From positions 37,038,635 through 37,102,634 of the forward strand of contig NC_060063.1 of the NCBI RefSeq assembly GCF_020283565.1: a DNA stretch of 64,000 bases, read 5' to 3'. This DNA is from Trifolium pratense. Its lineage: Eukaryota; Streptophyta; Magnoliopsida; Fabales; Fabaceae. The notes beneath the pieces are model-generated. The model was given only the letters and a program-made list of their open reading frames with translations, did no database searches and had not been told where the DNA came from. A program made the position numbers and the translations under genes. Positions 11,830-43,700 of this stretch are shown here, piece after piece; the stretch's first letter is position 1; every line of letters begins with the position of its first letter.

Positions 11830-11884
11830 AGGCACCCTGTTCTGTTATTTTGGGTGAGCTCCAGGGAGAGTACTTTCTGGTACA

Positions 11885-14800
11885 ATGGATAAAGAAGGAG
11901 GGTCAGTGTCTAAACCCCCCTTACTGACAGGTCCTGAGAACTATGATTATTGGAAATCTAAAATGGAGGCTTTCATTAAATCAATTGACAGCAGGACATG
12001 GAAGGTTGTATTACGTGGATGGGAACCACCAATGGTTCTTGACAAAGATGGTAATAAAACTGATGTTAAGAAGCCACATGATGAATGGACAAAAGATGAG
12101 GATGATCTGGCACTTGGCAACTCCAAAGCCTTGTATGCAATTTTCAATGGTGTGGATGCTAACATGTTCAGGCTTGTAAAGAGATGTATTACTGCCAAGC
12201 ATGCCTGGGAAATTCTGAGAAAGGCTCATGAAGGAACATCTAAAGTAAAGCTATCTAAGCTTCAGATGCTCAAAACTAATTTTGAGAATCTCAGAATGAA
12301 GGAGGAAGAAACCATCCATGACTTTCAGATGAATGTGCTTGACTTTGCAAATTCGTTTGATGCACTTGGAAAACCTATCTCAGATGAGGAGCTAGTTGGA
12401 AAAATACTCAGATCTTTGCCTAAAAGATTTGATATGAAGGTGACAGCCATTGAGGAGGCTCATGATCTCTCAAGCCTAAATTTAGATGAACTCATAGGAT
12501 CACTTCAGACCTATGAAATTGGTTTGAACAGAAGGAATGAAAAGAAAGATAAGAATCTAGCCTTTGCTTCAAAAAGTGCTGCTGATGATTTACAAATTGA
12601 ATCTGAAGGTGAAGAAAGCTTAGCTGAGTCTATGGCTATGCTTGGGAGACAGTTCAACAAGTTGATGAAGAAAGTGGATCAAAGGCACAAGCCAAATGGT
12701 CGATTCAACAACAACAAACAGTCCAGCTTTCAGAAAAAGACAAATGAAGATGAAAGAGGAGTGAAATGCCACGAATGTGAAGGTTTTGGCCATATCAGAC
12801 CTGAATGTCCAACCTTTCTAAAAAGGCAAAAGAAAAGTCTTGTGGTTTCATGGTCTGATACAGATTCAGAGGAGGAAGAATCTGCCAAATTTGTTAATGT
12901 TTTAACAGGAGTCTGTGTATCTGACTCAGAATCATGTGATGAGGAGGTAACTTATGAAGAACTAGCTGCTACTTACAAAGATCTTCATAGTAGAAGTATA
13001 GAAGTTTGCAAAGCATTGGAGAAACAAAAGAAGATCAATGGCAAACTGCAAGCTGAGAGAAATGACTTACTCATGAACATTAATAATCTCAACATTAAGG
13101 TTGAAGATCAGAGTAGTCAAATTCAACAGTTGGAAATGGAGAAGTCTAACCTCCTGTGTAAAGTTGCTGAACAAGGTGAAGAAGTGACCAAGTTAAATGC
13201 TGACTTGGATCAAGTCACAAAAGTGGCTAAAATGATGACCAAAGGTACTGATGCCTTTGAGGAAATGTTACAAAGACAAAACTACGGGAAACCTAAGCCC
13301 ATTGGTTTTGAACATGAAAGAGTAAAGCAACAGATGAAGTTCAACAATGCCACTATACATACTCCAATCAACAACACGTTTGTGTCAGGAGGATTGTCGC
13401 AACATCTTATGGAACATCCTGTGCCCAGGTTCTATAACTGGACATGTCATCATTGTGGAAGGAAAGGACATATTAGGCCTTTCTGCTATAGACTGCACGG
13501 ATATCCAAGGAGAGTTCATCAAGAATTCTATACTCCTGCCTTTCCTAATGTTACAACAAGACAGGAATGGAGAGAAAAGAAGAAGATCACAGGTCTAATA
13601 GCTCATACATCCTTGAGAGCTTCTTCAAGAGAAACATGGTACTTTGATAGTGGCTGTTCTAGACACATGACAGGTGTTGAACACTATCTTGAAGACTTGA
13701 AGTCATATGCTACCAGTTTTGTAACCTTTGGAGATGGAGCCAAAGGAGAGATCAAGGGAGTTGGTAAACTTGCAAACCATGGCTTACCAAAGCTTGATAA
13801 TGTGCTGCTTGTAAAAGGGCTTAAAGCTAATCTAATCAGCATAAGCCAACTTTGTGATCAAGGCATGAAAGTTAACTTCACAAAAGCTGAATGCCTAGTT
13901 ACAAACGAGCAAGGAGAGCTGTTGATGAAAGGAGTATGGTCAAGAGACAACTGCTATCTCTGGATCCCTAAAGAAGAAGATGTACCAACATGTCTTATTA
14001 GTAAAGAAGATGAGGTAAAGTTGTGGCACCAAAAACTTGGCCACCTGCACCTCAAAGGGATGAAGAAGGCAATAGCTAAAGAGGCAATCAGAGGTCTTCC
14101 AAAACTCAAAATTGAGGAAGGAAGTATATGTGGAGAATGTCAAATAGGGAAGCAGACAAAGATGTCGCATCCAAAGTTGCAACATCTTACCACAACAAGG
14201 GTTCTAGAATTACTGCACATAGACCTGATGGGGCCAATGCAAGTGGAGAGCCTTGGAGGAAAAAGGTACGCGTTTGTCATGGTAGATGACTTTTCAAGGT
14301 TCACATGGATTGAATTTCTAAAAGATAAATCTGAAAGTTTTGATGCATTCAAAGAACTTTGTCTTCAACTCCAAAGAGAAAAGAACTCTGCTATTGTTAG
14401 GATACGAAGTGATCATGGTAAAGAGTTTGAGAATGCAAGCTTTCTTGAATTCTGCATCTCTGAAGGAATCAAGCATGAATTCTCAGCTCCAATCACACCT
14501 CAACAAAATGGTGTTGTTGAGAGGAAGAACAGGACAATACAAGAGTCAGCCAGAGTGATGTTGCATGCAAAACATCTTCCATATCAATTCTGGGCTGAGG
14601 CTATGCATACTGCTTGTTATATTCACAATCGTGTCACACTCAGAACTGGAACTTCTACTACACTATATGAACTGTGGAAAGGCAGAAAACCAACTGTCAA
14701 ACACTTTCATGTGTTTGGAAGTAAGTGTTATATCCTATCTGATAGAGAGCACAGAAGAAAAATGGATCCTAAAAGTGAAGAAGGATTGTTTCTTGGATAC

Positions 14801-15160
14801 TCAACAAACAGCAGGGCCTACAGAGTTTACAACCAGAGAACTAAGGTAATAGTAGAATCTATCAATGTTGTGATAGATGATTTGACATCTGCTAAAACAT
14901 CTGATACTGAAGATGATGTTGCAACAACTTTGCCAACATCTGAAGAAGCTGTAGCAGAAAAGGAATCAGATTCAGATGATGAATCAACCATTCCTACACC
15001 TCGCCCTGTGAGTAAAGTTCCTTCAATAAGAATACAGAAGAACCATCCCAAGGATCTCATCATAGGAAATCCTAACCAGGGAATTGCTACAAGAAGGACA
15101 AATGAAGTGGTTACTAATTCATGTTTTGTCTCAAAGGTTGAGCCTAAAAATGTAAAATAG
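11885..15160 (+). CDS. Sirevirus Gag-protease-integrase (pol part 1)
   Basis: A 1,091-residue frame from ATG 11885. Gag: UBN2-type region (PENYDYWKSKMEAF, then YALFNGV-like ALYAIFNGVDANMF), zinc knuckle CHECEGFGHIRPEC at about residue 295, a coiled-coil-rich stretch at about 350-460, and a second knuckle CHHCGRKGHIRPFC at about residue 520. Aspartic protease: WYFDSGCSRHMTG at about 585. Integrase: zinc part WHQKLGHLHLKGM...CGECQIGK, then the D-D-E core with LLHIDLMGP, IRSDHGKEFENA and QNGVVERKNRT (about 780-880), and the GKEKR-like FLGYSTNSRAYRVYN. The frame stops at TAG 15158-15160, and the same reading frame continues at once into reverse transcriptase. In relatives a sense codon stands here, so this is probably a nonsense mutation. 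The base after it (G) gives no leaky context. Confidence 0.92.
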   Translation: MDKEGGSVSKPPLLTGPENYDYWKSKMEAFIKSIDSRTWKVVLRGWEPPMVLDKDGNKTDVKKPHDEWTKDEDDLALGNSKALYAIFNGVDANMFRLVKRCITAKHAWEILRKAHEGTSKVKLSKLQMLKTNFENLRMKEEETIHDFQMNVLDFANSFDALGKPISDEELVGKILRSLPKRFDMKVTAIEEAHDLSSLNLDELIGSLQTYEIGLNRRNEKKDKNLAFASKSAADDLQIESEGEESLAESMAMLGRQFNKLMKKVDQRHKPNGRFNNNKQSSFQKKTNEDERGVKCHECEGFGHIRPECPTFLKRQKKSLVVSWSDTDSEEEESAKFVNVLTGVCVSDSESCDEEVTYEELAATYKDLHSRSIEVCKALEKQKKINGKLQAERNDLLMNINNLNIKVEDQSSQIQQLEMEKSNLLCKVAEQGEEVTKLNADLDQVTKVAKMMTKGTDAFEEMLQRQNYGKPKPIGFEHERVKQQMKFNNATIHTPINNTFVSGGLSQHLMEHPVPRFYNWTCHHCGRKGHIRPFCYRLHGYPRRVHQEFYTPAFPNVTTRQEWREKKKITGLIAHTSLRASSRETWYFDSGCSRHMTGVEHYLEDLKSYATSFVTFGDGAKGEIKGVGKLANHGLPKLDNVLLVKGLKANLISISQLCDQGMKVNFTKAECLVTNEQGELLMKGVWSRDNCYLWIPKEEDVPTCLISKEDEVKLWHQKLGHLHLKGMKKAIAKEAIRGLPKLKIEEGSICGECQIGKQTKMSHPKLQHLTTTRVLELLHIDLMGPMQVESLGGKRYAFVMVDDFSRFTWIEFLKDKSESFDAFKELCLQLQREKNSAIVRIRSDHGKEFENASFLEFCISEGIKHEFSAPITPQQNGVVERKNRTIQESARVMLHAKHLPYQFWAEAMHTACYIHNRVTLRTGTSTTLYELWKGRKPTVKHFHVFGSKCYILSDREHRRKMDPKSEEGLFLGYSTNSRAYRVYNQRTKVIVESINVVIDDLTSAKTSDTEDDVATTLPTSEEAVAEKESDSDDESTIPTPRPVSKVPSIRIQKNHPKDLIIGNPNQGIATRRTNEVVTNSCFVSKVEPKNVK

Positions 15161-16672
15161 GCTCTCACTGATGAGTTCTGGATAGAAGCCATGCAAGATG
15201 AATTAACTCAGTTTAGAAGAAGTGATGTGTGGGATCTTGTTCCTAGACCCAATGGTGTTAATGTTATAGGCACAAAATGGGTGTTCAAGAACAAGTCAGA
15301 TGAAAATGGTGTTGTAACAAGAAACAAGGCAAGATTAGTGGCTCAAGGGTACACTCAGGTTGAAGGACTTGATTTTGATGAAACATTTGCGCCTGTAGCA
15401 AGACTAGAATCTATTAGGCTACTCCTCGGTATAGCATGCATCTTCAAATTTAAGCTGTACCAAATGGATGTCAAGAGTGCCTTTCTAAATGGGTACTTGC
15501 ATGAAGAGGTTTATGTGGAGCAGCCAAAAGGTTTTGTAGATCCTGCCAATCCTGATCATGTGTACAAGCTGAAGAAGGCGCTTTATGGATTGAAACAAGC
15601 TCCAAGGGCTTGGTATGAGAGGCTGACAAATTTCCTTGTTAGTCAAGGATACAGAAAAGGAGGCCATGACAAAACCTTGTTTGTCAAAGAACAAGAAGAG
15701 AAGTTGATGATTGCCCAAATTTATGTTGATGACATAGTATTTGGTGGAATGTCTGAAAAGATGGTGCAACATTTTGTACAACAGATGCAATCAGAGTTTG
15801 AAATGAGTTTGGTGGGTGAGCTAACATACTTCCTTGGTCTGCAAGTCAAACAAATGGAAGACACCATATTTGTCTCTCAAAGCAAGTATGCGAAAAATAT
15901 GATCAAAAAGTTTGGAATGGACACTGCAGCACACAAGAGAACACCAGCTGCTACTCATCTAAAGCTAACCAAAGATGAAAATGGCATTGATGTTGATCAA
16001 AGCCTATACAGGAGCATGATTGGCAGTCTATTGTATCTTACAGCCAGTAGACCAGACATCACCTTTGCTGTGGGTGTTTGTGCAAGATATCAAGCCAAGC
16101 CAAAAATGAGCCATCTTGTACAAGTCAAAAGGATTCTGAAATATATAAAGGGTACCAGTGATTATGGGATTCTGTATTCCCAGACCAAGAACTCAACTTT
16201 GATAGGGTATTGTGATGCAGATTGGGCTGGAAGTGCTGATGATAGAAAGAGCACTTCAGGAGGATGCTTCTTTTTGGGTGATAATTTAATCTCATGGTTC
16301 AGCAAGAAGCAGAATTGTGTGTCTCTATCTACTGCAGAGGCTGAATACATTGCTGCAGGTAGCAGTTGTTCCCAGCTAATGTGGATGAAACAGATGCTGA
16401 AAGAATATAATGTCGACCAAGATGTTATGACATTATATTGTGACAACTTGAGTGCAATTAATATATCAAAAAATCCAGTTCAACACTCAAGAACCAAACA
16501 TATAGACATCAGGCATCATTTCATTAGAGACCTTGTTGAAGAAAATTGTGTGGAACTTAAGCACATTGGTACAAGTGAACAGCTAGCTGACATTTTTACA
16601 AAGGCGCTTGATGCTAATCAGTTTGAATTTTTAAGGGGCAAATTGGGAATTTGCCTGCATGAAGATGCATAG
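15161..16672 (+). CDS. Sirevirus reverse transcriptase-RNase H (pol part 2)
   Basis: Direct in-frame continuation of the gag-pol frame after the amber codon; the first ATG is at 15191. RT motifs: [64 protein letters not shown] and the catalytic IYVDDIVFG (about 15720). RNase H motifs: [39 protein letters not shown] and [11 protein letters not shown]. All catalytic residues seem present, so apart from the stop at 15158 the polyprotein looks functional. It ends at TAG 16670-16672, followed by CAGTTA, and the frame stays open into the env-like ORF. Confidence 0.93.
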
Positions 16673-16678
16673 CAGTTA
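16670..16678 (+). promoter_or_regulatory. Leaky stop codon context UAG-CAGUUA
   Basis: The pol stop TAG is followed by CAG TTA, fitting the UAG-CAR-YYA readthrough signal known from tobacco mosaic virus and shown to work in soybean SIRE1. The downstream env-like ORF is in the same frame, with no further stop in between. This arrangement is expected to give a minor gag-pol-env fusion product. Confidence 0.85.
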
Positions 16679-19114
16679 CAGCAGTTGAGGCGTGCAAAAG
16701 GAAACCGTTTTCTCTCCCATCAATTAATGCACGCTAATTTAGGGAAATCATTACAAACTTCCCTTAAATATGTCATCACACGCATTCAATTACTTTTCTC
16801 CCAAAATCTAGCTTTTGTTCGTAAACCCTATTCTCACACTTCTCTCATCAAACTCCATCTGTTCATCTTCTCCAACTTCAAAAACCTTCATCCAAACATG
16901 TCTGAATCATCACAAACTACTAAGTCCGGCCGTTCTACTCGATCAAAAGCAAAAATCGAACCATCGAAGATCATCAAAGACGCCGTCCCTGTTACAATTG
17001 TTCATGCTTCCAAATCCAAAACTCAATCAAGTGTTGCTGAGAAGAAGGTAAAGGGAAAATCAGTTGAAAAGATGAAAGCTCCAAAAGTAAGTGACGATAC
17101 TTCCCCTTCTATTGATAAATCTGGTAAAGGAAGTTCTAAGAAAAAGAGAAGGGATTATAAGTCTAGAATTCCTCTTTCTATGTCTGATCTGGTTTTTGAA
17201 TCGAATGTTAAAACATCTGAGCAAACAACTGAAGTAGAATCTCAGAACCCTAAATCTGTGTCTGAAGTTGTTGAAACACTTATTTCAATTGCTGGTAACC
17301 CTAATCAAGATAATTTGGGATCTGATGCTGAGAAGAGAGATCTGAATAATATGCCTGTTGATACTGAGATGGAAGACACTCCTACAGAGGTTGAGCCTAA
17401 TATTGCTGAGAAATCACCAACAATTGCTGAAATGGTGGCTGAAAAATCAACCCCTGTTGTTACTGAAGAAGTTGTTATGAAGGATGTTGAAACATCCTTG
17501 AATGAGAATGAAGAAGTTGAAACTGCTACTGCTGAGGAAGAACCTGTGAAGGAAACTGTTGCTGAAAAGGATGTTGAGACAACTGCCACAACATCTGAGT
17601 CCACAGATGAAGAAACTGGAACTGCTGATGAGGGTACTTCTGATAATGAAGGGGACACTCAATCTGAAGAAAGTAACCAGTCCATCCCTACAGATGAGCA
17701 AGAGATTGAAGCTGACAAGCCTGCAGAAGCTGAGAAAGAAAAGGATGTAGTAGATGTTGATGATTATGTCACCACCAAGACTGCTGTAAAACCAACTGGT
17801 GGTATAACAAAAAGGTTGAGAAGCTGTACAGGGAAGGCTGTGGCCACTGCAAGCAAGACTCCTGCACCAAGAGTGAAAACAAAAGGTGTTGGACCTGTAA
17901 AAGGTTGGAGTAAAGTTCTATCACCTCCTGGCAAGAAGAAGGAGACACTGAAGAGAAAGAATGAGTCATCCAGTGACTCAGATTATGATGCTGCTGAAGA
18001 TGTTGCTAACATCTCATCTCCAAACCCTAAGAAGGCTACTATTAAGAAGGTTCCTCAAGGAATTGAAGAAGCCCCCTGTGATAACATCTCCTTCCATCGT
18101 GCTGCCTTTGCACTGAGATGGGACTACATTTACCAAAGGAGATTGGCTGTTGAAAGGGAACTGACCAAAGATGCTCTCAAATGTCAAGACATCTTTGACT
18201 ACATCAAGGAAGCTGGTCTGATGAAGACAGTCTGTGACTTTAGTCCCTGCTATGAGCTGCTGGTGAAAGAGTTTCTTGTGAACATCCCTGAAGAATGTGA
18301 TAACCCACTGAGCAAGGACTACCACAAAGTTTTTGTCAGAGGTAAATGTATCAATTTTTCTCCTGTAGTGATCAATAATTACTTAGGAAGATCTGTAGAA
18401 CCTAAGGCTGAATTAGAGGTTGCTAATGATGTTGTGAGTGCTGAAATAACTGCTGGTAAGGTTAAGGTCTGGCCCACAAAGAAGCTGATACCCACTAGTA
18501 AATTGAATGTCAAATATGCCATCCTCAATAGGATAGGGTCAACAAATTGGGTGCCAACCAAGCATGCAACCAATGTTGCTACAAACCTGGGTAGATTTAT
18601 ATATGCTGTAGGAACCAAGTTTGACTATGACTATGGGACCTTTATTTTTGATCAAACCATTAAGCATATTAGATCAACAGCTGTGAAGATGCCAATAGCA
18701 TTTCCATCTTTGCTATGTGGAATTATCTTGGCGCAATACCCGGACATCAAGGTTGTGACTGACACACCTAAGAAGAGGGAATCTGGCTTTACTTTTCATC
18801 ATAAGCTATTTGGTAATCACAATGTTACTGATCATGTTGGGACATCTGGTGCTGGAGCTGGTGTTATGACCAAAAAGGAGATTATTGCTGGTTTAAAGGT
18901 TCAATGTCAGGAAATAGATAAACAGCAGGCTGAGCTTGAAGAAAGGAAGAAATTGTTCTTGCAGATGATTGAAGGATTGGAAGCTGATGAAATACCTGTC
19001 AAAGCTAGTGCAAATGTGACTGCTACAGGTGAACAAAACAATGCAGATGAGGATGAAGGTTATGCTACTGCTACAGATGAGGATGAAGCCTCTGACAGTA
19101 GTGATGATGAATGA
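16673..19114 (+). CDS. Sirevirus envelope-like ORF
   Basis: In frame with pol across the leaky stop; without readthrough the first ATG is at 16898 (MSESSQTTKSGRSTRSKAK), giving about 738 residues. N-terminal third: basic, then very acidic and Glu/Thr/Val-rich low complexity (about 17180-17760), with a Lys-rich section at about 17800-18060. C-terminal half: a globular domain (CDNISFHRAAFALRWDYIYQ, then FLVNIPEECDNPLSKDYHK, KHATNVATNLGRFIYAV and FPSLLCGIILAQYPDIKV) of the type annotated in plant databases as a putative plant transposon protein. A coiled coil precedes an acidic tail. I see no convincing membrane anchor, so a true envelope role is unproven. The frame is intact. Confidence 0.82.
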   Translation, partial: QLQQLRRAKGNRFLSHQLMHANLGKSLQTSLKYVITRIQLLFSQNLAFVRKPYSHTSLIKLHLFIFSNFKNLHPNMSESSQTTKSGRSTRSKAKIEPSKIIKDAVPVTIVHASKSKTQSSVAEKKVKGKSVEKMKAPKVSDDTSPSIDKSGKGSSKKKRRDYKSRIPLSMSDLVFESNVKTSEQTTEVESQNPKSVSEVVETLISIAGNPNQDNLGSDAEKRDLNNMPVDTEMEDTPTEVEPNIAEKSPTIAEMVAEKSTPVVTEEVVMKDVETSLNENEEVETATAEEEPVKETVAEKDVETTATTSESTDEETGTADEGTSDNEGDTQSEESNQSIPTDEQEIEADKPAEAEKEKDVVDVDDYVTTKTAVKPTGGITKRLRSCTGKAVATASKTPAPRVKTKGVGPVKGWSKVLSPPGKKKETLKRKNESSSDSDYDAAEDVANISSPNPKKATIKKVPQGIEEAPCDNISFHRAAFALRWDYIYQRRLAVERELTKDALKCQDIFDYIKEAGLMKTVCDFSPCYELLVKEFLVNIPEECDNPLSKDYHKVFVRGKCINFSPVVINNYLGRSVEPKAELEVANDVVSAEITAGKVKVWPTKKLIPTSKLNVKYAILNRIGSTNWVPTKHATNVATNLGRFIYAVGTKFDYDYGTFIFDQTIKHIRSTAVKMPIAFPSLLCGIILAQYPDIKVVTDTPKKRESGFTFHHKLFGNHNVTDHVGTSGAGAGVMTKKEIIAGLKVQCQEIDKQQAELEERKKLFLQMIEGLEADEIPVKASANVTATGEQNNADEDEGYATATDEDEASDSSDDE

Positions 19115-19267
19115 TTTTGTAATCTGTTTAATATTTTACTGTACTTTGTTTTTTGGTTTGTGGGTGTATTTGTGCCCTGGATTTTAGCACCTTCTGAGTG
19201 CATGGTCTGTACTTTTAATTCTGCACTTTGGATACTTAACTTTCCTGTTTTGGCACATTTTGTGGCT

Positions 19268-19748
19268 AAAAAGGGGGAGTAGTACTTTGATTTGTTTGTT
19301 TCTGCTACATGTTGTTGTGTCTTTTGTTATGACATGTTTTTAAGTAGCAGTAAGCAAGTATTCAGGGGGAGTAAAAATTTTTTACCCTGAGATGATGCAC
19401 AAGCTGATGAAGTCAGGGGGAGTTTGCTACTGAATGGATGCTGCCCTGATTGGACGAACATGTGCTAGAAGATGTGCTCCCATATGTCACAACACCTTTG
19501 ATGACATATGACATATGATATATGTTTTGCTCTGATACCACGTTTTATTTTGCTCGAGGCTAATTGATGATAACTCCGCTGCTGCTGCCTCTGATGCATA
19601 TATTTTCACCTATGTGAAATTTTGTTTAAATGATGCTCTAACATTCCTTCTTTTGTGTGACCATGGTGATTTGAAGGATTGCGCTTTTTATATCTCTCAA
19701 AGGTAATGGCCTGAAATTGTTTTAGCCAAAAATTGCCAAAGGGGGAGA
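19268..19748 (+). other. Multiple polypurine tracts upstream of the 3' LTR
   Basis: GGGGGAG recurs at AAAAAGGGGGAG (19268-19279), CAGGGGGAG (19373-19381), CAGGGGGAG (19414-19422) and AAAGGGGGAGA (19738-19748); the last abuts the 3' LTR and is the functional plus-strand primer. Repeated polypurine motifs in this interval are a known hallmark of Sireviruses. Confidence 0.85.
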
Positions 19749-19749
19749 T

Positions 19750-20719
19750 TGTTGGATATTTGAATTGGCTTAATTTTGCTAAAACAAATATACTAACAAG
19801 ATGTTGGAAAACATGTTACAACATCATATTTATTCAAGGAAATCTCGCGCATTTATTAGAGCATCTGCTATTTATGGAAATCCACTTAAAGAGCACGCTC
19901 AATGGAGATTTGATCTGATCAGGAGCTTTAAGGATAAGACAAACTTAATGGAATAGCTGGATGACTTATCCTATCATATAAAGTCCTTTAAACACTTTTG
20001 GAAAGTCTTGATATATCCTTAATGAAGATTGAAAAAGTATCAGATCATCCTTTATGATTCTCAAGGAGCGTCTGAGCATTTGTGAAGAAAGAGGAGCGTG
20101 CCTAATCATTATATATATGAAGACCAAGCTCAAGACTAAGTATCTCAATTGAAAAATATTAGTTCACATATTGAGTCTTTGTTGAGTCTTTTATTATTTG
20201 ATTGTAATTCTTGCTTGTGGATTCTATAACACGAGCTAAGAAGTAAGTTTATTAGTTTAAGGTTACTCCTAAGCTTTGAAGTACGGAGTTTACCGTGTGT
20301 GATTCACTTGAAGCTTTTAAGCAAAAGTGAAGTGTTGTCTTGGCAAGTTGTCGCCACATCTTTCCCAACATTGTATAATCAACACAGGTTGTGTTGTGTG
20401 AGTGGAAGTGAGATGGGATCTCATGTCTAGGAGTTCCTAGGCAGAAGTTGCATGAGTAGTGTCGAGGTTATAAGGCGTAAACCAAGGGTTTGCTGGAGGT
20501 CTTAGTAACTAGAGCTATTAGTGGATTTCCTTCCTGGATTGGTATCCCCCAGAGTAGGCAGTTGGCTGAACTGGGTTAACAATTACTTGTGTCATTTATT
20601 TATTTTCTGTCAGTTTTTATATGTTATATAAGATGTGCCAACAATAGAAAACAACACTGTTCACAAAGTAGTTGTTGGGACATCTTAGGCAACATCATTC
20701 TAGTGATACCAGAATTTCA
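19750..20719 (+). repeat. 3' LTR of the Sirevirus
   Basis: 970 bp, nearly identical to 10846-11815, followed directly by AAATC (20720-20724). Confidence 0.95.
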
Positions 20720-20775
20720 AAATCGCATACCACTTTCTCGTCTCCCTCCTTTCTTCCCCGAAAACAAAACACAGT

Positions 20776-21938: not shown

Positions 21939-22094
21939 GTGAAATATAATTTTTGTATTCTTTACTTACCATTATCAATGATGGTATCTGTTGTTTTATT
22001 GTAGAGAACCTCTGTGAGCACTCATGGTTATTTTGTTTCTTTAAAAACTGATATATATTGTCAACAAATTATTATCTGCAGCTGAGATAACACT

Positions 22095-25000
22095 TGTCAT
22101 ACCCCATTTTTTGACCGATCGATTTTTTTTACGTTTTTAGATGGTTTTTTTCTTACATCTGCAGACCTTAATCCCTGACACCATATAAATAGTGCATTAA
22201 ATGCACAATTTCCGCGACAAGTTTCAGCTGCAAGATTTCTACAATCTGATCATTTTCAAATTTCTCCCATTCACTTTCAAACTAATTCCTACATTGCATA
22301 AACCCTAGAAAATGACATTTTTACCCTTAATCATGTTTTTTTTCATTTTTCACATTTTTATTTATTTTTGGTAATTCATTTAATTTGTTTTAATTCATTT
22401 TCATCACACACGAAAATCCCAAAAAATTCCTAACATTTTTCTTCTCATTTGAGGCCTAGAAACATCCTTTTAATTACAGCCCATTTCACCACACCATGTG
22501 ATTTCATTTGAACCAAAATCACAAAATATATCATAAAACAAAAACTCTAAACTACCCTTTTCTTGCTCTCCAATTCAATCCAATCTAAACCTAATTTGTC
22601 ATTATAAATAACACCCTTCACTGATGAGAGAGAAGGAGGACGAAATTCAGATCAAAAAATCACCAAACAACAACACATTTCTCTCATTTTTTCACCCTTT
22701 TCTTTGATTTTTCAAAACCCATTCAAACCACCTTCAAACTTGAATTTCTACAATCCACTAGCTTCTAACAACTTCCAGTAGCACAAAACAATCATAAAAC
22801 ACAAGCTCTAACCCATAATTCAGGTGAACCAAATGCTCAAAAACATCCAAAAAAAGATTGAAACGATTCTGGAGTTCTAGGCCACTATTTCACGTGATTT
22901 TTGTCGCTCTATGCTCCTGGAGACGTTCTAAAGCTTTCCCACAGACCCAATCAACCCAGTTCGCATTATTTTTCGTACCCAAAATTTTCATCTCAAACTT
23001 TATCTCATCATATTTCAACTTTCGGGCACTTTTGGAAGAAAATAAGGGTAGATTCGTGATCTACGAAGAATTCCGAGCAATTTGGTATATTTGGTTGCAA
23101 TTTTCAGTCACTATTTGAATCGCCGGCGAAAGGACCACCGTGCCGGAATCGGCCTGCTCGCCGGAGAAGAAGGTGTTTCCGGTTCTGTTTTTTTTATTTT
23201 CTTTTGTTTCCAGTTTAAATTTAAGCCATCTGATTGATCAAACGGACCAGATCTGTCCTGATTTTTTTTTAAATATTATCCATCTGATCAATCAGATGAC
23301 CCAGATATAAGATTGTTACTGTGTACCCTGTTTAGCTACTGCATTGGATTATTTTTGTTTGACTGTGAATTTTTGTTTGACTTCGTTGATGGGCCTTGGG
23401 CTTGGACTAGGCTGACTGTTATTTGCACCCCGCTTCTAATACGTTTTAATATTTGCACCCCCTGCTGCAACTTAATTTTAATTTGTTTTTAGCTTATTTT
23501 AAGAGTAGCTTTTCATTTCAATGACTTTTCTAAGTCATTTTGAACAAAATTAAGCTACTAAGATTTTAATTAGATTTTAATTTAATTCAATTGATTATAT
23601 TATGTAATTAATGGCTCTTTAATTTTATTTTTGTTCAAAGCTTATGAAATAAGTGCTTTTGGCATAAGTTGTTTCTTTTAGCCTTGTAAAGCATGATATT
23701 GAAGCTTGAACTAACTCACTAACATATCAAAATGTTACACCATTTTAATTAATTGTTCTTTTTTAATTTTGTTTTGTTATTCACAAGCTTATGAGATAAG
23801 TGCTTTTGGCATAAGTTATTCTTTTAGCCTTTTAAAGCAGGACGTTGAGGCTTGACTAATTCACTAACTTATTAATCCTTTAACTTATATTCATTATCAT
23901 GTTTTTTTTACTTATGTCTATTTTAATTATAAATTCCTTGATGCTTTAATATTCATTAATTTCATGCAAATCATTTCATCTCATGTTCATCCTGTGACAT
24001 ACTTAATTCCATGCATTTAAGTTTTATTTCTATCTTCACCAATGTTGTATTGTGTGCTATTTCCTAATTTTGGGTTGTATTGTGTGTTTATGGTTTTCTT
24101 AATTATGTTATTCATTTATTTTTGTTTTTGGACTTAGAATGTAATTAGGATTTAAATGTAATTATAAATGAGAATTTGCATTGCATTCTTGCATTCATAT
24201 CATGTTTACTTCATTGCAAGGTTAGAATGTAATTAGGTTTTATAATGTAATTGCATTGCATGCATATTTATTTCGCTTTATATATATTATGGTTAGTTTA
24301 GGAGATGGATCCTCATTTTGATCCAACGTCATTATGAGGTCCATCGCGCGTAATTAGATCGTCGCGTTAAAATCAATCAATCGCGTTTTTTTAAAATTTG
24401 AGGTCAAAACCTCTTTTTGATGCGCAAAAACTTTTTTCACTCTTCTTCAAAATTGAGGTCAAAACCTCTTCAAAACCAAAAAACATTTTTCTTTCAAACA
24501 TCAACCTTTCAAAAGCCACAAAAACATTTGCTTTTTTTTTCAAAACCTTTTCCAAAAACACCAAAAAAATCTTTTTGTCATCAAACATTTTCAATACAAA
24601 AGCACTTGGATTTCAAACCAAAGTTGCATTTTCAAACTCAATCAATCAAACTTCTTTTCTTTTCTTGAACTCTTGGATTTTAAACCAAGTGGTTTCATCA
24701 CACTCTTTTCCTAAAAACCTTGGACTTCAAACCAAGAGACTCTTATCATTCAAACCATTTTCACAATAAACCTTGGACTTCAAACCAAGCAAGCGCGTCT
24801 TTTTTCTAAATCAAACATCAATCAATCCTAATCATTTAGACTTTCTTTCACCAAAACTAAAATTAACCAACCTCACATTTTATGCCACTTTGGCTTTTTC
24901 ATCTTTAAAACCTTTTTCAAAACCATAAAAAACAAACCAACAAACAAATCGACTTTTACCCCGAACTACGGTGGTTTGATCCCTCGGGTACGTAGGCATG

Positions 25001-25348
25001 AGACTTGTCTCTCCAATCAAATAAAATCAACAAAAACATTTTCCCCTTTTTTTCTTTCTTTAAGCATTTTTCATTATCACTTTAATTCTTATACGTTTTT
25101 TTCAAAAGCAATTAAAATAAAGCGCGTAGATAGAATAAAAACAAGAGGTTCCTATAGAGTACTATAGATACATAGGGTGCTAATACCTTCCCTTCGTATA
25201 ACTAACCCCCGAACCTTGTTCTCTAAAATAAATAGGGTTTTTTCGAACTTTTTCCCTTTCCCTCGGATAAAATTAAAGATCGGTGGTGGAATATCAAATT
25301 GCGATTCGAAGTTAATTAATAACTCGATATCCAAAAATCACCGCGACA
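22095..25348 (+). repeat. Left Ogre-type LTR (plus orientation)
   Basis: About 3.25 kb, beginning TGTCATACCCCATTTTTTG and ending ATCACCGCGACA, followed by GAAA and the primer site. Very long LTRs, of several kb, are typical of Ogre/Tat elements of legumes. The TCAATCGCG and GTACGTAGGCATGAG blocks occur in the last kb. Open frames in it are not supported as genes. Confidence 0.85.
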
Positions 25349-25352
25349 GAAA

Positions 25353-25371
25353 TGGCGACTTCACTGGGGAC
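25353..25371 (+). other. Left primer binding site (tRNA-Arg type)
   Basis: TGGCGACTTCACTGGGGAC, four bases after the LTR end. Ogre elements use a TGGCGACTC...GGGGA type site, assigned to tRNA-Arg. Confidence 0.75.
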
Positions 25372-26077
25372 AACCAAGCGGGTTGAACCTAACTTGTTTT
25401 AAATTACTATTTTCGCGCTTTTATTCTTTTGATTGTAAATATTTGTATATATATACTTGGGTTTGCTCTGAGTGGTGAGATAAGTCCTAACCCGGGCTTG
25501 AGCGACACAATAAGATAGGACGGGGTGAAATCATAGTGACATGTCCAGAGTAGTCTGGATTATGAAGCACATGTGATAAGATCCCACTTGGTGGAGGCCT
25601 CATGACGATAGTACTCGTTGTCATGAAAAGTCATGATGATGGTATTATTTTCAATGTGAGTGTCCAGAGAAGCCGAGAACCTTTAGAATCACCTTTAACC
25701 CATCTTGGCCTTTTCTAGGACGTAGTGCGGTGGCTAAATCAAGAGTAGTCTTGAGATTAGTCGTCACGCGAAACTACACTCAAACGAGATTATCCCGTGG
25801 ATGTTATCGGAACGAGAGTAGTCCCGTAACCCGGTAATGTCCATAAGACGGTCAATGACTTTGGGAACTTTGTAGAACCCGTAATGCAGGTACAAGTAAA
25901 CCCTAGTACTTACCATATGGGAGGGCTTTTACCCTTAAACTCCATCATTATGTATCCCAACCTTCCATTTGTGCATTGAATCATTGTAACATAATCATGC
26001 ATCCATGCATTCATTTCATCATAAGAAAATCTTTTTTCGAAGGACCTAAGAGAGTTATTTTGTAAACATTACAGATT

Positions 26078-26515
26078 ATGGACCTAAAGAAAAGGAACAC
26101 TAAGAAGTATAGTTTCAAGGAACCAAACCTTTCCCGACTAAGAGAGCTAGGAGCTCTAGTTCCATTCCCCGAAAATTTCCAAAAGCGATATGGGAAACTT
26201 TTGAGCATCCTCAATACAAATGTTGAAGAGGGAATTCTTAACACACTCATCCAGTTCTATGATCCAATTTACCACTGCTTTACTTTTGTCGATTATCAGT
26301 TGGTTCCTACCCTAGAGGAGTATTCTTATTGGGTTGGTTTGCCGATCTCCGAAAAGATACCTTATACCGGTTTAGAAGAATCTCCTGCACCTTCAGTTAT
26401 TGCAAATGCTCTTCACTTGAAGACTTCGGACATAGTCTCCAATCGCACTAAAAAGGGAGGATTTCAAGGATTGACCTCTAATTTTTTATTCGGGAAGGCA
26501 TTTTTGTTTGAATGA
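26078..26515 (+). pseudogene. Ogre ORF1 N-terminal fragment (left arm)
   Basis: 145-residue frame beginning MDLKKRNTKKYSFKEPNLSR, with LGALVPFPENFQKRYGKLL, YHCFTFVDYQLVPTLEEYS and WVGLPISEKIPYTG. This is the start of the extra ORF1 found 5' of gag in Ogre elements (a DUF7745-like protein, usually several hundred residues, function unknown). After GKA (26499) the sequence enters the asymmetric centre and the frame ends FLFE-stop. The leader 25372-26077 between primer site and ORF1 is non-coding. Confidence 0.8.
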
Positions 26516-26558
26516 TAGAGACATCTCTGGACCAGATACACTGGGGATGACTGATCAA
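26500..26558. other. Asymmetric centre (loop) of the palindrome
   Basis: 59 bp without inverted symmetry, joining the two ORF1 fragments at the same base (GGGAAGGC | ... | GCCTTCCC). It contains GACATCTCTGGACCAG and ATACACTGGGGATGACTG. It is the junction where the copying switched strands or where two molecules were joined. Confidence 0.85.
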
Positions 26559-26980
26559 GCCTTCCCGAATAAAAAATTAGAGGTCAATCCTTGAAATCCT
26601 CCCTTTTTAGTGCGATTGGAGACTATGTCCGAAGTCTTCAAGTGAAGAGCATTTGCAATAACTGAAGGTGCAGGAGATTCTTCTAAACCGGTATAAGGTA
26701 TCTTTTCGGAGATCGGCAAACCAACCCAATAAGAATACTCCTCTAGGGTAGGAACCAACTGATAATCGACAAAAGTAAAGCAGTGGTAAATTGGATCATA
26801 GAACTGGATGAGTGTGTTAAGAATTCCCTCTTCAACATTTGTATTGAGGATGCTCAAAAGTTTCCCATATCGCTTTTGGAAATCTTCGGGGAATGGAACT
26901 AGAGCTCCTAGCTCTCTTAGTCGGGAAAGGTTTGGTTCCTTGAAACTATACTTCTTAGTGTTCCTTTTCTTTAGGTCCAT
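26555..26980 (-). pseudogene. Ogre ORF1 N-terminal fragment (right arm, inverted)
   Basis: Inverted duplicate of the left-arm fragment, 141 residues, identical except at the PEDF/PENF position. It terminates two bases after the palindrome border (GKA-stop). Confidence 0.8.
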
Positions 26981-27678
26981 AATCTGTAATGTTTACAAAA
27001 TAACTCTCTTAGGTCCTTCGAAAAAAGATTTTCTTATGATGAAATGGATGCATGATTATGTTACAATGATTCAATGCACAAATGGAAGGTTGGGATACAT
27101 AATGATGGAGTTTAAGGGTAAAAGCCCTCCCATATGGTAAGTACTAGGGTTTACTTGTACCTGCATTACGGGTTCTACAAAGTTCCCAAAGTCATTGACC
27201 GTCTTATGGACATTACCGGGTTACGGGACTACTCTCGTTCCGATAACATCCACGGGATAATCTCGTTTGAGTGTAGTTTCGCGTGACGACTAATCTCAAG
27301 ACTACTCTTGATTTAGCCACCGCACTACGTCCTAGAAAAGGCCAAGATGGGTTAAAGGTGATTCTAAAGGTTCTCGGCTTCTCCGGACACTCACATTGAA
27401 AATAATACCATCATCATGACTTTTCATGACAACGAGTACTATCGTCATGAGGCCTCCACCAAGTGGGATCTTATCACATGTGCTTCATAATCCAGACTAC
27501 TCTGGACATGTCACTATGATTTCACCCCGTCCTATCTTATTGTGTCGCTCAAGCCCGGGTTAGGACTTATCTCACCACTCAGAGCAAACCCAAGTATATA
27601 TATACAAATATTTACAATCAAAAGAATAAAAGCGCGAAAATAGTAATTTAAAACAAGTTAGGTTCAACCCGCTTGGTT

Positions 27679-27697
27679 GTCCCCAGTGAAGTCGCCA
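27679..27697 (-). other. Right primer binding site (inverted)
   Basis: Reverse complement of the left site (GTCCCCAGTGAAGTCGCCA on the plus strand), at the mirrored position. Confidence 0.75.
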
Positions 27698-27701
27698 TTT
27701 C

Positions 27702-30700
27702 TGTCGCGGTGATTTTTGGATATCGAGTTATTAATTAACTTCGAATCGCAATTTGATATTCCACCACCGATCTTTAATTTTATCCGAGGGAAAGGGAAAA
27801 AGTTCGAAAAAACCCTATTTATTTTAGAGAACAAGGTTCGGGGGTTAGTTATACGAAGGGAAGGTATTAGCACCCTAAGTATCTATAGTACTCTATAGGA
27901 ACCTCTTGTTTTTATTCTATCTACGCGCTTTATTTTAATTGCTTTTGAAAAAAACGTATAAGAATTAAAGTGATAATGAAAAATGCTTAAAGAAAGAAAA
28001 AAAGGGGAAAATGTTTTTGTTGATTTTATTTGATTGGAAAGACAAGTCTCATGCCTACGTACCCGAGGGATCAAACCACCGTAGTTCGGGGTAAAAGTCG
28101 ATTTGTTTGTTGGTTTGTTTTTTATGGTTTTGAAAAAGGTTTTAAAGATGAAAAAGCCAAAGTGGCATAAAATGTGAGGTTGGTTAATTTTAGTTTTGGT
28201 GAAAGAAAGTCTAAATGATTAGGATTGATTGATGTTTGATTTAGAAAAAAGACGCGCTTGCTTGGTTTGAAGTCCAAGGTTTATTGTGAAAATGGTTTGA
28301 ATGATAAGAGTCTCTTGGTTTGAAGTCCAAGGTTTTTAGGAAAAGAGTGTGATGAAACCACTTGGTTTAAAATCCAAGAGTTCAAGAAAAGAAAAGAAGT
28401 TTGATTGATTGAGTTTGAAAATGCAACTTTGGTTTGAAATCCAAGTGCTTTTGTATTGAAAATGTTTGATGACAAAAAGATTTTTTTGGTGTTTTTGGAA
28501 AAGGTTTTGAAAAAAAAAGCAAATGTTTTTGTGACTTTTGAAAGGTTGATGTTTGAAAGAAAAATGTTTTTTGGTTTTGAAGAGGTTTTGACCTCAATTT
28601 TGAAGAAGAGTGAAAAAAGTTTTTGCGCATCAAAAAGAGGTTTTGACCTCAAATTTTAAAAAAACGCGATTGATTGATTTTAACGCGACGATCTAATTAC
28701 GCGCGATGGACCTCATAATGACGTTGGATCAAAATGAGGATCCATCTCCTAAACTAACCATAATATATATAAAGCGAAATAAATATGCATGCAATGCAAT
28801 TACATTATAAAACCTAATTACATTCTAACCTTGCAATGAAGTAAACATGATATGAATGCAAGAATGCAATGCAAATTCTCATTTATAATTACATTTAAAT
28901 CCTAATTACATTCTAAGTCCAAAAACAAAAATAAATGAATAACATAATTAAGAAAACCATAAACACACAATACAACCCAAAATTAGGAAATAGCACACAA
29001 TACAACATTGGTGAAGATAGAAATAAAACTTAAATGCATGGAATTAAGTATGTCACAGGATGAACATGAGATGAAATGATTTGCATGAAATTAATGAATA
29101 TTAAAGCATCAAGGAATTTATAATTAAAATAGACATAAGTAAAAAAAACATGATAATGAATATAAGTTAAAGGATTAATAAGTTAGTGAATTAGTCAAGC
29201 CTCAACGTCCTGCTTTAAAAGGCTAAAAGAATAACTTATGCCAAAAGCACTTATCTCATAAGCTTGTGAATAACAAAACAAAATTAAAAAAGAACAATTA
29301 ATTAAAATGGTGTAACATTTTGATATGTTAGTGAGTTAGTTCAAGCTTCAATATCATGCTTTACAAGGCTAAAAGAAACAACTTATGCCAAAAGCACTTA
29401 TTTCATAAGCTTTGAACAAAAATAAAATTAAAGAGCCATTAATTACATAATATAATCAATTGAATTAAATTAAAATCTAATTAAAATCTTAGTAGCTTAA
29501 TTTTGTTCAAAATGACTTAGAAAAGTCATTGAAATGAAAAGCTACTCTTAAAATAAGCTAAAAACAAATTAAAATTAAGTTGCAGCAGGGGGTGCAAATA
29601 TTAAAACGTATTAGAAGCGGGGTGCAAATAACAGTCAGCCTAGTCCAAGCCCAAGGCCCATCAACGAAGTCAAACAAAAATTCACAGTCAAACAAAAATA
29701 ATCCAATGCAGTAGCTAAACAGGGTACACAGTAACAATCTTATATCTGGGTCATCTGATTGATCAGATGGATAATATTTAAAAAAAAATCAGGACAGATC
29801 TGGTCCGTTTGATCAATCAGATGGCTTAAATTTAAACTGGAAACAAAAGAAAATAAAAAAAACAGAACCGGAAACACCTTCTTCTCCGGCGAGCAGGCCG
29901 ATTCCGGCACGGTGGTCCTTTCGCCGGCGATTCAAATGACTGAAAATTGCAACCAAATATACCAAATTGCTCGGAATTCTTCGTAGATCACGAATCTACC
30001 CTTATTTTCTTCCAAAAGTTCCCGAAAGTTGAAATATGATGAGATAAAGTTTGAGATGAAAATTTTGGGTACGAAAAATAATGCGAACTGGGTTGATTGG
30101 GTCTGTGGGAAAGCTTTAGAACGTCTCCAGGAGCATAGAGCGACAAAAATCACGTGAAATAGTGGCCTAGAACTCCAGAACCGTTTCAATCTTTTTTTGG
30201 ATGTTTTTGAGCATTTGGTTCACGCGAATTATGGGTTAGAGCTTGTGTTTTATGATTGTTTTGTGCTACTGGAAGTTGTTAGAAGCTAGTGGATTGAAGA
30301 AATTCAAGTTTGAAGGTGGTTTGAATGGGTTTTGAAAAATCAAAGAAAAGGGTGAAAAAATGAGAGAAATGTGTTAAATGTGTTGTTGTTTGGTGATTTT
30401 TTGATCTGAATTTCGTCCTCCTTCTCTCTCATCAGTGAAGGGTGTTATTTATAATGACAAATTAGGTTTAGATTGGATTGAATTGGAGAGCAAGAAAAGG
30501 GTAGTTTAGAGTTTTTGTTTTATGAGATATTTTGTGATTTTGGTTCAAATGAAATCACATGGTGTGGTGAAATGGGCTGTAATTAAAATGATGTTTCTAG
30601 GCCTCAAATGAGAAGAAAAATGTTAGGAATTTTTTGGGATTTTCGTGTGTGATGAAAATGAATTAAAACAAATTAAATGAATTACCAAAAATAAATAAAA

Positions 30701-30961
30701 ATGTGAAAAATGAAAAAAAACATGATTAAGGGTAAAAATGTCATTTTCTAGGGTTTATGCAATGTAGGAATTAGTTTGAAAGTGAATGGGAGAAATTTGA
30801 AAATGATCAGATTGTAGAAATCTTGCAGCTGAAACTTGTCGCGGGAATTGTGCATTTGATGCACTATTTATATGGTGTCAGGGATTAAGGTCTGCAGATG
30901 TAAGAAAAAAACCATCTAAAAACGTAAAAAAAATCGATCGGTCAAAAAATGGGGTATGACA
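27702..30961 (-). repeat. Right Ogre-type LTR (inverted)
   Basis: About 3.26 kb mirror copy of 22095-25348. It ends at the element border with GGGGTATGACA, directly followed by ACACT. Confidence 0.85.
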
Positions 30962-31275
30962 ACACTATTCGAGGACAATATCGTTGTTTACAAATTTGTG
31001 CAAGACGTGCATATCTTCGTCACTGGTGGTGATGATGAGATGAGCTCATTTTGTCATCTGTTCTACCAGGCTTCTTTGACGCAGTCACCCTTTTTGCTGA
31101 GGTATTTATGGTTGTACTTTGTTAATTATTTTGTATCAAAATTTAATTGAAAGTCAGGTGGGTATTTACTCATATATGTGTTCCTTTTACTGGAACAATG
31201 TTAACAAAAGTGAGGCACTTGAGAACATTCTTTATGCCTTGCCTAGATTGTTGATGGAGGCTATGTATATATTGG

Positions 31276-35297: not shown

Positions 35298-35414
35298 AGA
35301 AGTGTTTGAGTTTATAACGTACAGCTTTTAACATTTTTATCATTTTTTATTTACGCTATTTCAAGACGCTATTTCTTATTATTATTTATTATTTTGAGCA
35401 GATAGGCATAGATC

Positions 35415-37052
35415 ATGGCTGGTAAAATCTCATCAACAGATGTGCATAAAATCCAAAGACATAATGTGGATGATATGATTAGCGACTTACCCGAGGGCGT
35501 TCTTCTTCATATTCTTTCTTTACTCCCTACCGAAGATGTTGTAAGAACTTCCGTATTAGCAACAAAATGGAGACACTTGTGGACCTACTTATCCGTCTTT
35601 GATTTTAAAATTCCATATCCTCTATATAATAAGTCAAAAGACCAAAATCAGAATTCAGTAAATTGTCTCTTAGATCTAGTTGGAAGACTACTGCGAAAAT
35701 CTAATTGTGTAGAAAGGCTCTCCATTGACATATTTGTAATTGGTGTTGATGGAGATAAAGTTAGTTCTTTAATATCTTCTGCTTCGAAGCACAAACTACA
35801 ATATCTTAAACTTTCACTAGGTGTTCCAATTCCAAATGATAAGTTTGCGTTACCCCATTGTTTCTCGGCATTTGAGTCATTGAATGAACTTTGTTTAGGA
35901 CTCAGGTTCACTCTTTGTATTCCTAGTGATATTTGTTTCCCTAGTCTGAAGAAATTAGTAGTTTCAGATGTTGAATTTGCAAATGAGGAGTCGGTTCAAC
36001 AACTTTTCTCTGGGTGCCCTGTCTTACAAGAGTTGACCTTGTACAATTGTTATTGGGAGAATATAGAGCAGATCAATATTGCAATTTCCACATTAAGGAA
36101 GTTGACCATCTATTTCGACCCTTGTTGTGTAGATGATGAGGATGATGAGATGACAGTCATGATTGATGCTGTGAATCTTTTATCTTTAAGTTGCACATGC
36201 CATGCAGCAATACGATTTATCCCTGTTAACTTGACCTCCATAGTTGATGCGCATGTTCATCTTGAGGATTACAGTCAACTTGTACCTGTACTATATGTTG
36301 CTCATTGTATATTTGAGCTATTGAGTGGACTTAATAATGTCAAATCTCTCGATATAACAAATGATACTCTTGAGGTATGATTGAGTATTTTTTCATCATC
36401 TTCATTTTTGTATATATTGCATTGGATAATGCCTAATGTGAATGTTACCTTTAGTTATCGTTGTATATTTTCTCTCTATCACAATACTGAATGTTGTTTT
36501 GTTTCATTTACTAGTGTCTTATTGACCGTACAGAGGTTGACCTCAATCTCCTTCCCACATTTCACAATTTAACACATCTTTGTGTGTATAATTTTACTGA
36601 CGAGTCTACTGCTACTAGTGGAGTATTACCTGATATTCTCCGAAAGACTCCTAAACTGGAAGTTCTTTATATTCCTACTGTGGTACATTTTACATTCTGC
36701 ATCAGTGCTTTTATTTGTCATGTTTCAATGCTTACAATAATATTATTTCTGAAATTTGATATGTTTCGTGATTCTTATTTAGGTACGTGAATACTTGGTT
36801 GGTGAAGATTCGTTATTGAACTCATTGCCTTGCTGCTTAAAATCCTCTCTCAAACGATTATGCATTTTATATTTTTCTGGAGATGAAGATGAAATTGAGT
36901 TTGTTAGGCTTTTCTTAAAAAATGCCCCATTTTTAGGGGAGATCCAGTTATTCTGTGTGAGATCTTTATTAGCTAATGTGGAGAAGGTGGCTGATATCCA
37001 GGACCAGTTGCAATCTGTACGCCCGGGAGCATGTGTCATCAAATTTTTGTAA
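35415..37052 (+). CDS. F-box/LRR/FBD-type protein, copy 1 (3 exons)
   Basis: Exons 35415-36374, 36515-36682 and 36783-37052, all GT-AG and phase 0, giving 465 residues. Residues about 16-60: F-box (NVDDMISDLPEGVLLHILSL, then LPTEDVVRTSVLATKWRHLW). Residues about 90-400: LRR of the plant FBD/LRR class (VERLSIDIFVIGVDGDKVSS; GCPVLQELTLYNCYW; LPTFHNLTHLCVYNF). The C-terminal end (RLFLKNAPFLGEIQLF, then CVIKFL) is an FBD-like tail. Expected role: substrate receptor of an SCF ubiquitin ligase, target unknown. Copy 2 (46568) is almost identical, so this is a recent segmental duplication. The intact F-box, correct splice sites and full length support function. Confidence 0.85.
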
Positions 37053-40739: not shown

Positions 40740-43700
40740 GCCGCCGTTGAAACTTCCTCCTACTGGAAATTCTCAGATCGATGAAACTTCTTAACAACGT
40801 TGCAATTTAGATCGTCGCCGCCGTTGCAATTTCAGTCTTCTCTGAAACCCAACGAGAAAGAACTAATCCACCGATGCATCCCGTACAAGACAACAAAAGA
40901 TCGTCGTCGCCGCCGCTGCAATCTGTAACCCCCACCATCTGTTTCAGTTTTCTTCTCACACTGCCGTCAGTTATCTAGTTCATTGCCTATCGCCGATTAT
41001 TTTATTCACTCCCGCCGCTGCCGTCGCTGTGGAATAGTTCCCTGTTTCCGTTGGTGTCATCGTGTTCTCCCCTAGGGTATATGCTTCTCTCCCTTGTGGG
41101 TGCTTTGATTTTCAATCGTTTAGGTTATGCCTAATCTGATTGCTTTGATTTTCAATCGTTTAGGTTAGGCCTAATCTGATTGCTTGTGTTACTGGTTATT
41201 ATGACTCTGCTTAATGCTTAGAATTGAGGCTGATTTATTCATCCTTGCTGCACTGATTGAATTTCACTGTTTATGCCTGAGCCTTTGATTGTTTCCATCT
41301 ACACTATTATGTGCTTTTCTCTCTAAGCATGGCTGATGTGTATGATTAATTTCCCTCTGGTATGGATAATATGGTCTGGTCTTATTATAACATGTTTTGT
41401 GTCAATTATGGTGTCTGATCTTGGATGAAGATGAGGAAGGAATTGGTGCCATAACCTGGTTCAATTTGTATATGACAGATACTAAAAATAAGGCTAAATG
41501 AGTGTCATTAGTTGGAATTGCCGGGGATTGGGTAACCCGAGTGCAGTTCTTCATTTGAAATACCTCATCTGTAGATATAAACCGGATGTAATGATATTGT
41601 ATGAGACTTTGGTCAACTCAAATAAAACAACTGATTTGCGTTATGAGTTGAGTTTTGATTCTTGTCTTGCTGTTGATCGTGAAGGAAGAAGAGGGGGAGT
41701 GGCTGTTTTTTGGAATAATCATATAAATTGTAATATCACCAATTATTCTTCCAATCATGTTGATATTGAGGTGGTTGATTCAGGTAAGGGGAATTGGAGA
41801 TTAACAGGTTTTTATGGTTATCCGGAAGGTAGTCGTAGAAGAGACTCTTGGAATTTACTCCGACAACTTTCTCAACGATCTAATTTACCTTGGTGTGTCA
41901 TTGGTGATTTAAATGATATATTGTCTTCAGATGAAAAGAAAGGTAGAGCTGACAGAGCAAATTGGTTGATAAATGGTTTTAGAGAAGCGGTGGGAGATGC
42001 TGGTTTATTTGATTTGTTTATGCATGGTTATCAATTCACTTGGTTTAAAAGCTTGGGAACAAATCGTGCGGTTGAAGAAAAATTGGACAGAGCTTTAGCA
42101 AATGATTCATGGAGTCAAAATTTCCCTAATGCTAGATTGGAGTGCTTGACAGCTACCTCATCTGACCATTATCCATTGTGGCTTGTCTGTGAGCCGATTC
42201 AGCCCACTTCTTATGCACCGAGACATTTTAAATTTGAGATGGCTTGGATGGAAGATCCAGAATTTGCTAACTTTGTTCGCAACAGGTGGAGCACATACAA
42301 CGCAAATGATATTACACATAAGCTCGATGCTTGCGCATCAGACTTGTCACACTGGAGCAAGGATCATTTCCATAATTTGCGTAAGCAAATTGACGCCTAT
42401 CACAAGAAACTGGAGCAGACTCGTGGTCATGTAGATGAGACCAATATCAATTACTTCAATGCTTTAAAAAAAAGATTAAATGTTTTACTTTCTCAGGAGG
42501 ACCGTTTTTGGAAACAAAGAGCCAAAACTTTCTGGTACAAGGATGGAGATTTAAACACCAAATTTTTCCATGCAGCTGCTTCTACAAGAAAGAAGGTGAA
42601 TCGAATTGAAGTCTTGACCGATAATAACAATGTTGAGTGCCGATCTCAGGAAGGCATGGTTGCTATTGCTAGAGAGTATTTTTTAAATCTGTTTCAGAAG
42701 CAAAACAGTGCACGTGATGAAGTTCTTAATGCTATCACACCTTCGATAACAGTTGAGGACAACAACCAACTTTCAGCGCCTTTCATGTTTGAAGAGTTTC
42801 GTGAAGCAATTTTTTCCATGGAAGCCGACAAGTGTCCAGGTCCGGACAGTTTCAATCCGGGTTTTTATCAACAGTTTTGGGATATTTGTGGTCAAGAAGT
42901 CTTTAGTGCTGGTTGTTCTTGGCTTAATTCCGGTGTTTTTCCTCCTAACTTGAATTCTACTAACATCGCTTTAATTCCTAAAGGTGATGTTCAAACCACT
43001 ATGAAGGATTGGAGACCAATTGCTTTGTGTAACGTTCTCTATAAAGTGGTAGCTAAAGTTCTTGCTAACAGATTAAAAGGTGTGCTTAATAAATGTATTT
43101 CTGATAATCAATCTGCTTTTGTTCCTGGAAGATCAATTCTCGATAATGCTATGGCTGCAATTGAATTAGTGCATTATATGAAAGCAAAGACTAGAGGCAA
43201 ACAAGGAGATGTTGCTCTTAAACTTGATATTAGTAAAGCATATGACAGGATAGATTGGGATTATCTCAAAGATGTTATGAAAACTATGGGTTTCTCTCAA
43301 AATTGGATATCTTGGATTATGCTTTGTGTTGAGACAGTTGATTACTCAGTGATCCTCAATGGCAACACAGCTGGACCTATCATCCCGGGCAGAGGCTTAC
43401 GGCAAGGGGACCCTCTGTCCCCCTATCTGTTTATTATTTGTGCCGAAGGTTTGTCGGCACTTATTAGAAAAGCAGAATGCAAAGGTGATATCCACGGGGT
43501 TAAAATTTGCAGAAATGCCCCCATTATTTCACATCTTCTTTTTGCAGATGATTGTTTCCTTTTCCTTCGAGCATCTGACAGTGAAGCTGTAATCATGAAG
43601 AATATTCTCTCTACTTACGAAGCTGCATCAAGCCAAGCAATTAACCTGCAAAAATCTGAAATTTATTGTAGCAGAAATGTCTCTCCGGCCATTCAAAACT

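Follow-up and report, generated by a model that had tools for sequence, protein, structure and literature searches.

A palindromic retrotransposon derivative with a U3 end at both of its borders entered the genome of Trifolium pratense in one precise insertion, and its pre-insertion site is known. The window, which is the whole 64,000-nucleotide stretch that was analysed (NC_060063.1, positions 37,038,635 to 37,102,634), contains an inverted repeat of 8,867 bp at 22095-30961. Its two arms, 22095-26499 and 26559-30961, are separated by 59 nt. Reading inward, each arm comprises a full LTR of about 3.25 kb, the bases GAAA, a primer-binding-site-like (PBS-like) stretch, TGGCGACTTCACTGGGGA, a leader and the ATG of ORF1, followed by approximately the first 140 codons of this frame. 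When the unit was compared to its own reverse complement using self-BLAST, identity was 98.8% over 8,899 columns. An earlier note on this DNA had described two facing 4.4-kb arms of LTR, PBS and ORF1 start at 22090..30966; that layout is borne out by the inverted repeat, and the coordinates are exact, including both copies of ACACT. The features are listed in Table 1. Each LTR also contains a 130-bp unit that is present twice, close together (23605-23875, mirrored at 29175-29445), the copies being 83% identical.

Table 1. Coordinates of the palindromic insertion and of the exon that it interrupts, in window positions.
Feature	Position	Strand	Remark
Interrupted exon, left piece (AEIT..)	22081-22094	+	start inferred from preceding AG
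Target-site duplication ACACT, left copy	22090-22094	.	
Left LTR, 3,254 bp, TGTCATACCCC...CACCGCGACA	22095-25348	+	
Left PBS-like stretch TGGCGACTTCACTGGGGA	25353-25370	+	4 nt past LTR
Left-arm ORF1 start, 145 aa	26078-26512	+	DUF7745 (PF24924) profile positions 1-126/341; stop codon inside filler
13 nt, left arm only	26500-26512	+	ORF1 residues FLFE
Centre filler, 46 nt	26513-26558	.	single copy in window
Right-arm ORF1 start	26559-26980	-	DUF7745 profile positions 1-123/341
Right PBS-like stretch	27680-27697	-	
Right LTR, 3,260 bp	27702-30961	-	U3 end outward
Target-site duplication ACACT, right copy	30962-30966	.	
Interrupted exon, right piece	30962-31101	+	25 residues, then frame lost; end at GAG|GT inferred

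A normal element has its U3 end at one border and its U5 end at the other. Here, both outer ends read TGTCATACCCCATTTT inward, and the window contains TGTCATACCCC only at the two outer ends of the palindrome, a single time on each strand. The U3 ends that had been claimed for both sides are thus the same terminus. Immediately outside them lie the two copies of ACACT. The probability that two random 5-mers of the window match is 0.00175, and the places compared were fixed by the element ends. A stronger proof of a single insertion than the ACACT match is the empty site. When the left flank is joined to the right flank minus one ACACT, the result is 29 residues in one open frame across the join, and the reconstructed sequence without the insert is GCTGAGATAACACTATTCGAGG. 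One target-site duplication (TSD), two U3 ends and an in-frame empty site agree with the earlier claim of a unit inserted in one step with a single 5-bp duplication. Two independent insertions are ruled out by the one TSD and the in-frame empty site.

Long palindromes are difficult to assemble, and this raises the question of an assembly artefact or of two haplotypes merged into one sequence. Such an origin is very improbable, as there are 16 difference events between the arms, the arm ends coincide with LTR ends and with the TSD, and neither flank duplicates the other. In addition, both borders are U3 in any case, so that the two-U3 finding is independent of how the interior was assembled.

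The gene that received the insertion is probably, rather than certainly, coatomer-zeta-like. The exon together with the piece that follows it (with X at the frame loss) matches four coatomer zeta-1 sequences in the PDB, with a best E of 9e-4 over 45 residues. The 29-residue exon piece alone gave nothing in the PDB at E 0.001, the only match up to E 10 being a PPR protein (0.52), and neither version of the exon (29 residues, or 29 residues plus the following piece) has a match in Pfam. It is because the 29 residues alone find no coatomer protein and Pfam finds none that the gene name is only probable; the open reading frame across the join does not depend on it. To the right of the insertion the coatomer-zeta-like frame is lost after DDE, which indicates that the gene is defective here independently of the insertion. 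By eye, a likely later exon within 30962-31270 is decayed, so the gene would be a broken copy or a relic.

The centre of the palindrome is asymmetric. ORF1 is common to both arms up to ...FLFGKA, after which the left arm continues for 13 nt (FLFE) before the 46-nt filler begins. To compare this filler to intact ORF1, we used the 151 of 234 ORF1 relatives that align for at least 24 residues beyond the breakpoint, in which the continuation, AFEAIFALLIYG, is conserved (6 of 24 columns above 90%). In three frames the filler scores 0 against this continuation, a value reached by 300 of 300 shuffles, 0 being the floor of the score. Rescored without the floor, its value is reached by 224 of 300 shuffles when read from the left arm and by 233 of 300 when read from the right. 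When all 59 nt of the spacer are scored, the value is reached by 92 of 300 shuffles from the left arm, where the 13 native nucleotides are included, and by 286 of 300 from the right. The test does recognise a control stretch of ORF1, whose score is reached by 0 of 300 shuffles (166 relatives). The filler has no second copy within the window, and translation of the spacer in six frames gave nothing convincing against the 234 relatives: the best two matches were gapped, with E values of 0.056 and 0.078, and the third spans 8 residues at E 0.16.

These results bear on how the palindrome was made. The mismatch between filler and ORF1 continuation means that the spacer is not simply a folded ORF1 loop, unless the parent was already rearranged there. 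A loop of this kind is what is expected if a single plus-strand cDNA folded onto itself in ORF1 and was extended by self-copying to a hairpin, which was then converted, by opening or copying, to a linear palindrome and integrated. This snap-back origin is rather unlikely. In its favour, the inner arms are nearly identical, their roughly 3.4 kb differing by 5 substitutions and one indel, and the 59-nt spacer is short. Against it stand the filler, which differs from the continuation in relatives, and the uneven divergence of arms that it predicts to be identical at birth. Moreover, a hairpin has one open end and would need an extra step before two-ended integration. Since it is the concerted joining of two DNA ends that produces a TSD, a hairpin made by self-priming is less favoured, and the self-priming proposed in the earlier note is less well supported.

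The third route proposed there, auto-integration of one cDNA into another followed by integration of the product, has precedent in Ty1 circles derived in this manner (PMC12786077, citing Garfinkel et al. 2006). It is disfavoured and very improbable. Auto-integration is expected to join an LTR terminus to internal DNA, and the centre has none: when the 8-base U3 and U5 ends were sought on both strands of 26441-26620, no match was better than shuffles, the best having 2-3 mismatches and being reached by 197 to 299 of 300. Its products are, in addition, circles (PMC12786077).

Instead, we favour, with a probability of about 0.6, an origin in which two truncated Ogre-like cDNAs were fused head-to-head before integration and were then inserted once via two U3 termini. 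Both cDNAs would belong to a single Ogre-like family, would have an intact 5' (U3) end and would stop within ORF1, through breakage or incomplete synthesis; they would have been joined head-to-head through the 46-nt filler prior to integration. The host's end-joining machinery may have made the join, or reverse transcriptase may have changed strand and template; the strand switching of the earlier note thus keeps a place beside end joining. Should the second arm have been synthesised by reverse transcriptase, the enzyme probably copied plus-strand DNA starting at the U3 end, since an RNA template would not be expected to end there. Fusion of two truncated cDNAs in this orientation gives directly a linear molecule with two U3 ends. 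Integrase would then have acted on a pair of identical U3 termini in place of its usual U3 and U5 ends. As the LTR starts with TGTC and ends with GACA, U3 and U5 present integrase with the same four terminal bases. Finally, the linear palindrome would have been inserted once into the coatomer-zeta-like exon, producing the 5-bp ACACT duplication. Of this, the layout, the TSD, the empty site and the asymmetric centre with its filler are observed; we infer the fusion before integration, the two parent molecules, the joining pathway and the use of the element's own integrase. On the other side, the parent element could already have carried the filler.

The differences between the arms can be read in the light of this head-to-head fusion. 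Three differing columns inside the TSD were excluded, leaving 16 events, which are 13 substitution events (14 positions, one neighbouring pair being counted as one) and 3 indels. Of the 16 events, ten fall within the outer 1,018 bp of the 4,405-bp arm, the outer-arm variants being located at 22198-23112. For a change point, p as obtained by simulation is 0.015; the binomial value for the same outer/inner split, 0.0009, was computed after the data were seen. Transversions account for 5 of 9 positions in the outer part and 1 of 5 in the inner part. If the arms were identical at birth and the rate is 1.3e-8, the substitution rate used for dating, their divergence corresponds to about 0.11 million years. 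The clustering is modest. It would be expected if the U3-R parts derived from different templates, and it could also be due to chance or to gene conversion between the inner parts of the arms. In Onsen, the majority of LTR recombinants are consistent with the first template switch, in R (PMC5668417).

The palindrome could also have arisen by rearrangement after insertion. Here, replication coming from the right flank of a normal Ogre with ACACT on both sides would have switched template, jumping from U5 to the left U3 at a shared TTGTC, copying the left arm backwards and rejoining in ORF1, with deletion of the remainder. The left border and the hypothetical normal right border would indeed have TTGTC in common, and filler is usual at joins in template-switch repair. 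However, the switch must hit a few bases in an element presumably over 10 kb in length, and a second switch is required, which makes this series of events quite improbable.

The earlier note called the unit an Ogre derivative. This is likely, given the leader ORF, the size of the LTR and the PBS-like stretch, which is putatively complementary to tRNA-Arg. Ogre elements are otherwise recognised by reverse transcriptase (RT) phylogeny and by an aRH between RNase H and integrase; the unit contains no RT or aRH domain. Ogre elements carry an extra ORF upstream of gag, and DUF7745 (PF24924) is presumably a marker of this ORF1. Both ORF1 starts match it in Pfam, with E values of 1.2e-43 (left) and 5.2e-43 (right). 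Among the ORF1 relatives listed (120 of 129 and 120 of 392 matches), those that carry species names are mostly from pea (Lathyrus oleraceus), while others belong to Vicia or Trifolium. The LTR of 3,254 bp with TGTC..GACA ends and the 5-bp ACACT duplication fit a large LTR, TG..CA ends and a 5-bp TSD, features that are unspecific to Ogre. According to PMC9289625, large LTRs are typical of Ogre and its PBS is antisense to tRNA-Arg. The palindrome resembles the Ogre lineage (Tat clade, Ty3/gypsy) in its large LTR, its 5-bp TSD and an ORF close after the PBS-like stretch. It differs in that the unit ends inside ORF1 and lacks gag, protease, RT, RNase H and integrase. The plant mobile domain pfam10536, present in 57% of Ogre elements according to a survey (PMC6317226), is absent from the Pfam matches of the window ORFs. 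Among viral contigs, 19 pattern matches to the element were obtained, none of which was confirmed as a relative; plasmids gave no match, and Rfam gave 0 matches at gathering scores.

Complex insertions with one TSD are known, and those are head-to-tail; the inverted U3-U3 form was not found in the literature searched. Four such insertions have been described and were explained by a model in which two RNAs are co-packaged (Sabot and Schulman 2007, PMC1950507). The Angela, Squiq and Opie insertions of that study are like the palindrome in that the cDNA of more than one element entered in one insertion with a single 5-bp TSD. They have three LTRs, one of them internal, and two core regions, in head-to-tail order according to the text (PMC1950507). 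The palindrome, in contrast, is head-to-head, with two LTRs, two U3 ends, incomplete internal regions and filler at the join. It therefore shares with template-switched complex insertions the single TSD around a multi-part element, whereas in place of an internal third LTR and two complete cores it has two inverted LTRs and incomplete cores. No inverted two-U3 case appears in the available portions of PMC13317346, PMC12786077 and PMC7215508, and none with a single TSD was found among the listed titles and abstract beginnings of the mostly open-access literature on palindromic or template-switched LTR elements.

If the head-to-head fusion is right, the locus is a chromosomal record of a plant Ty3/gypsy-type integrase pairing and joining two U3 ends in planta. 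It would mean that misassembled cDNAs can enter the chromosomes whole, could show how cDNA copies misjoin and how long hairpin-forming loci originate, and would provide a route, without nested insertion or later rearrangement, to long inverted repeats, which may start RNA silencing. As the arm divergence makes the insertion young, the parent elements and the empty allele may still exist; if they persist, the origin models can be told apart.

With both of its LTRs directed inward, the palindrome could give rise to long double-stranded RNA. Arabidopsis EVD lines have been searched for LTR hairpins without success, and one antisense nested EVD insertion was found as a possible silencing trigger (PMC11624286). 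That insertion and Mu killer, cited there, are like the palindrome in having inverted transposon sequence and potential hairpin RNA. The EVD case is a nested insertion (PMC11624286), whereas the palindrome was seemingly made before insertion, in one step. Mu killer silences Mutator, and the palindrome could likewise be a natural trans-silencer of its own family. From the LTR orientation we would suggest such a role tentatively. The wider proposal, that head-to-head fusion with U3-U3 integration is a recurrent one-step route to inverted repeats and that this locus could trans-silence its own family via long double-stranded RNA, is speculative and rather doubtful.

Other elements surround the palindrome in the window. 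To its left, a Ty1/copia element at 10841-20725 has LTRs (10846-11816 and 19750-20720) that are 99.8% identical and AAATC on both sides; it carries gag/integrase and RVT_2 ORFs and, after pol, an extra ORF at 16685-19114 that matches Pfam Transposase_32. To its right, an F-box/LRR gene region is duplicated in direct orientation (35300-37028 and 46453-48162, 95.8% identical), with a LINE-like element (41498-45581; Exo_endo_phos, RVT_1, zf-RVT and RVT_3) between the copies. The nearest named relatives of an F-box gene of the window, from Trifolium, are 81-82% identical over its length. At 53513-60034, a chromodomain gypsy pol ORF (53513-56047, minus strand) adjoins minus-strand copia pieces, which include 637-bp direct repeats that are 98.4% identical. 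Finally, short tandem-like repeats, 78-85% alike and in overlapping registers, occupy 61937-62493.
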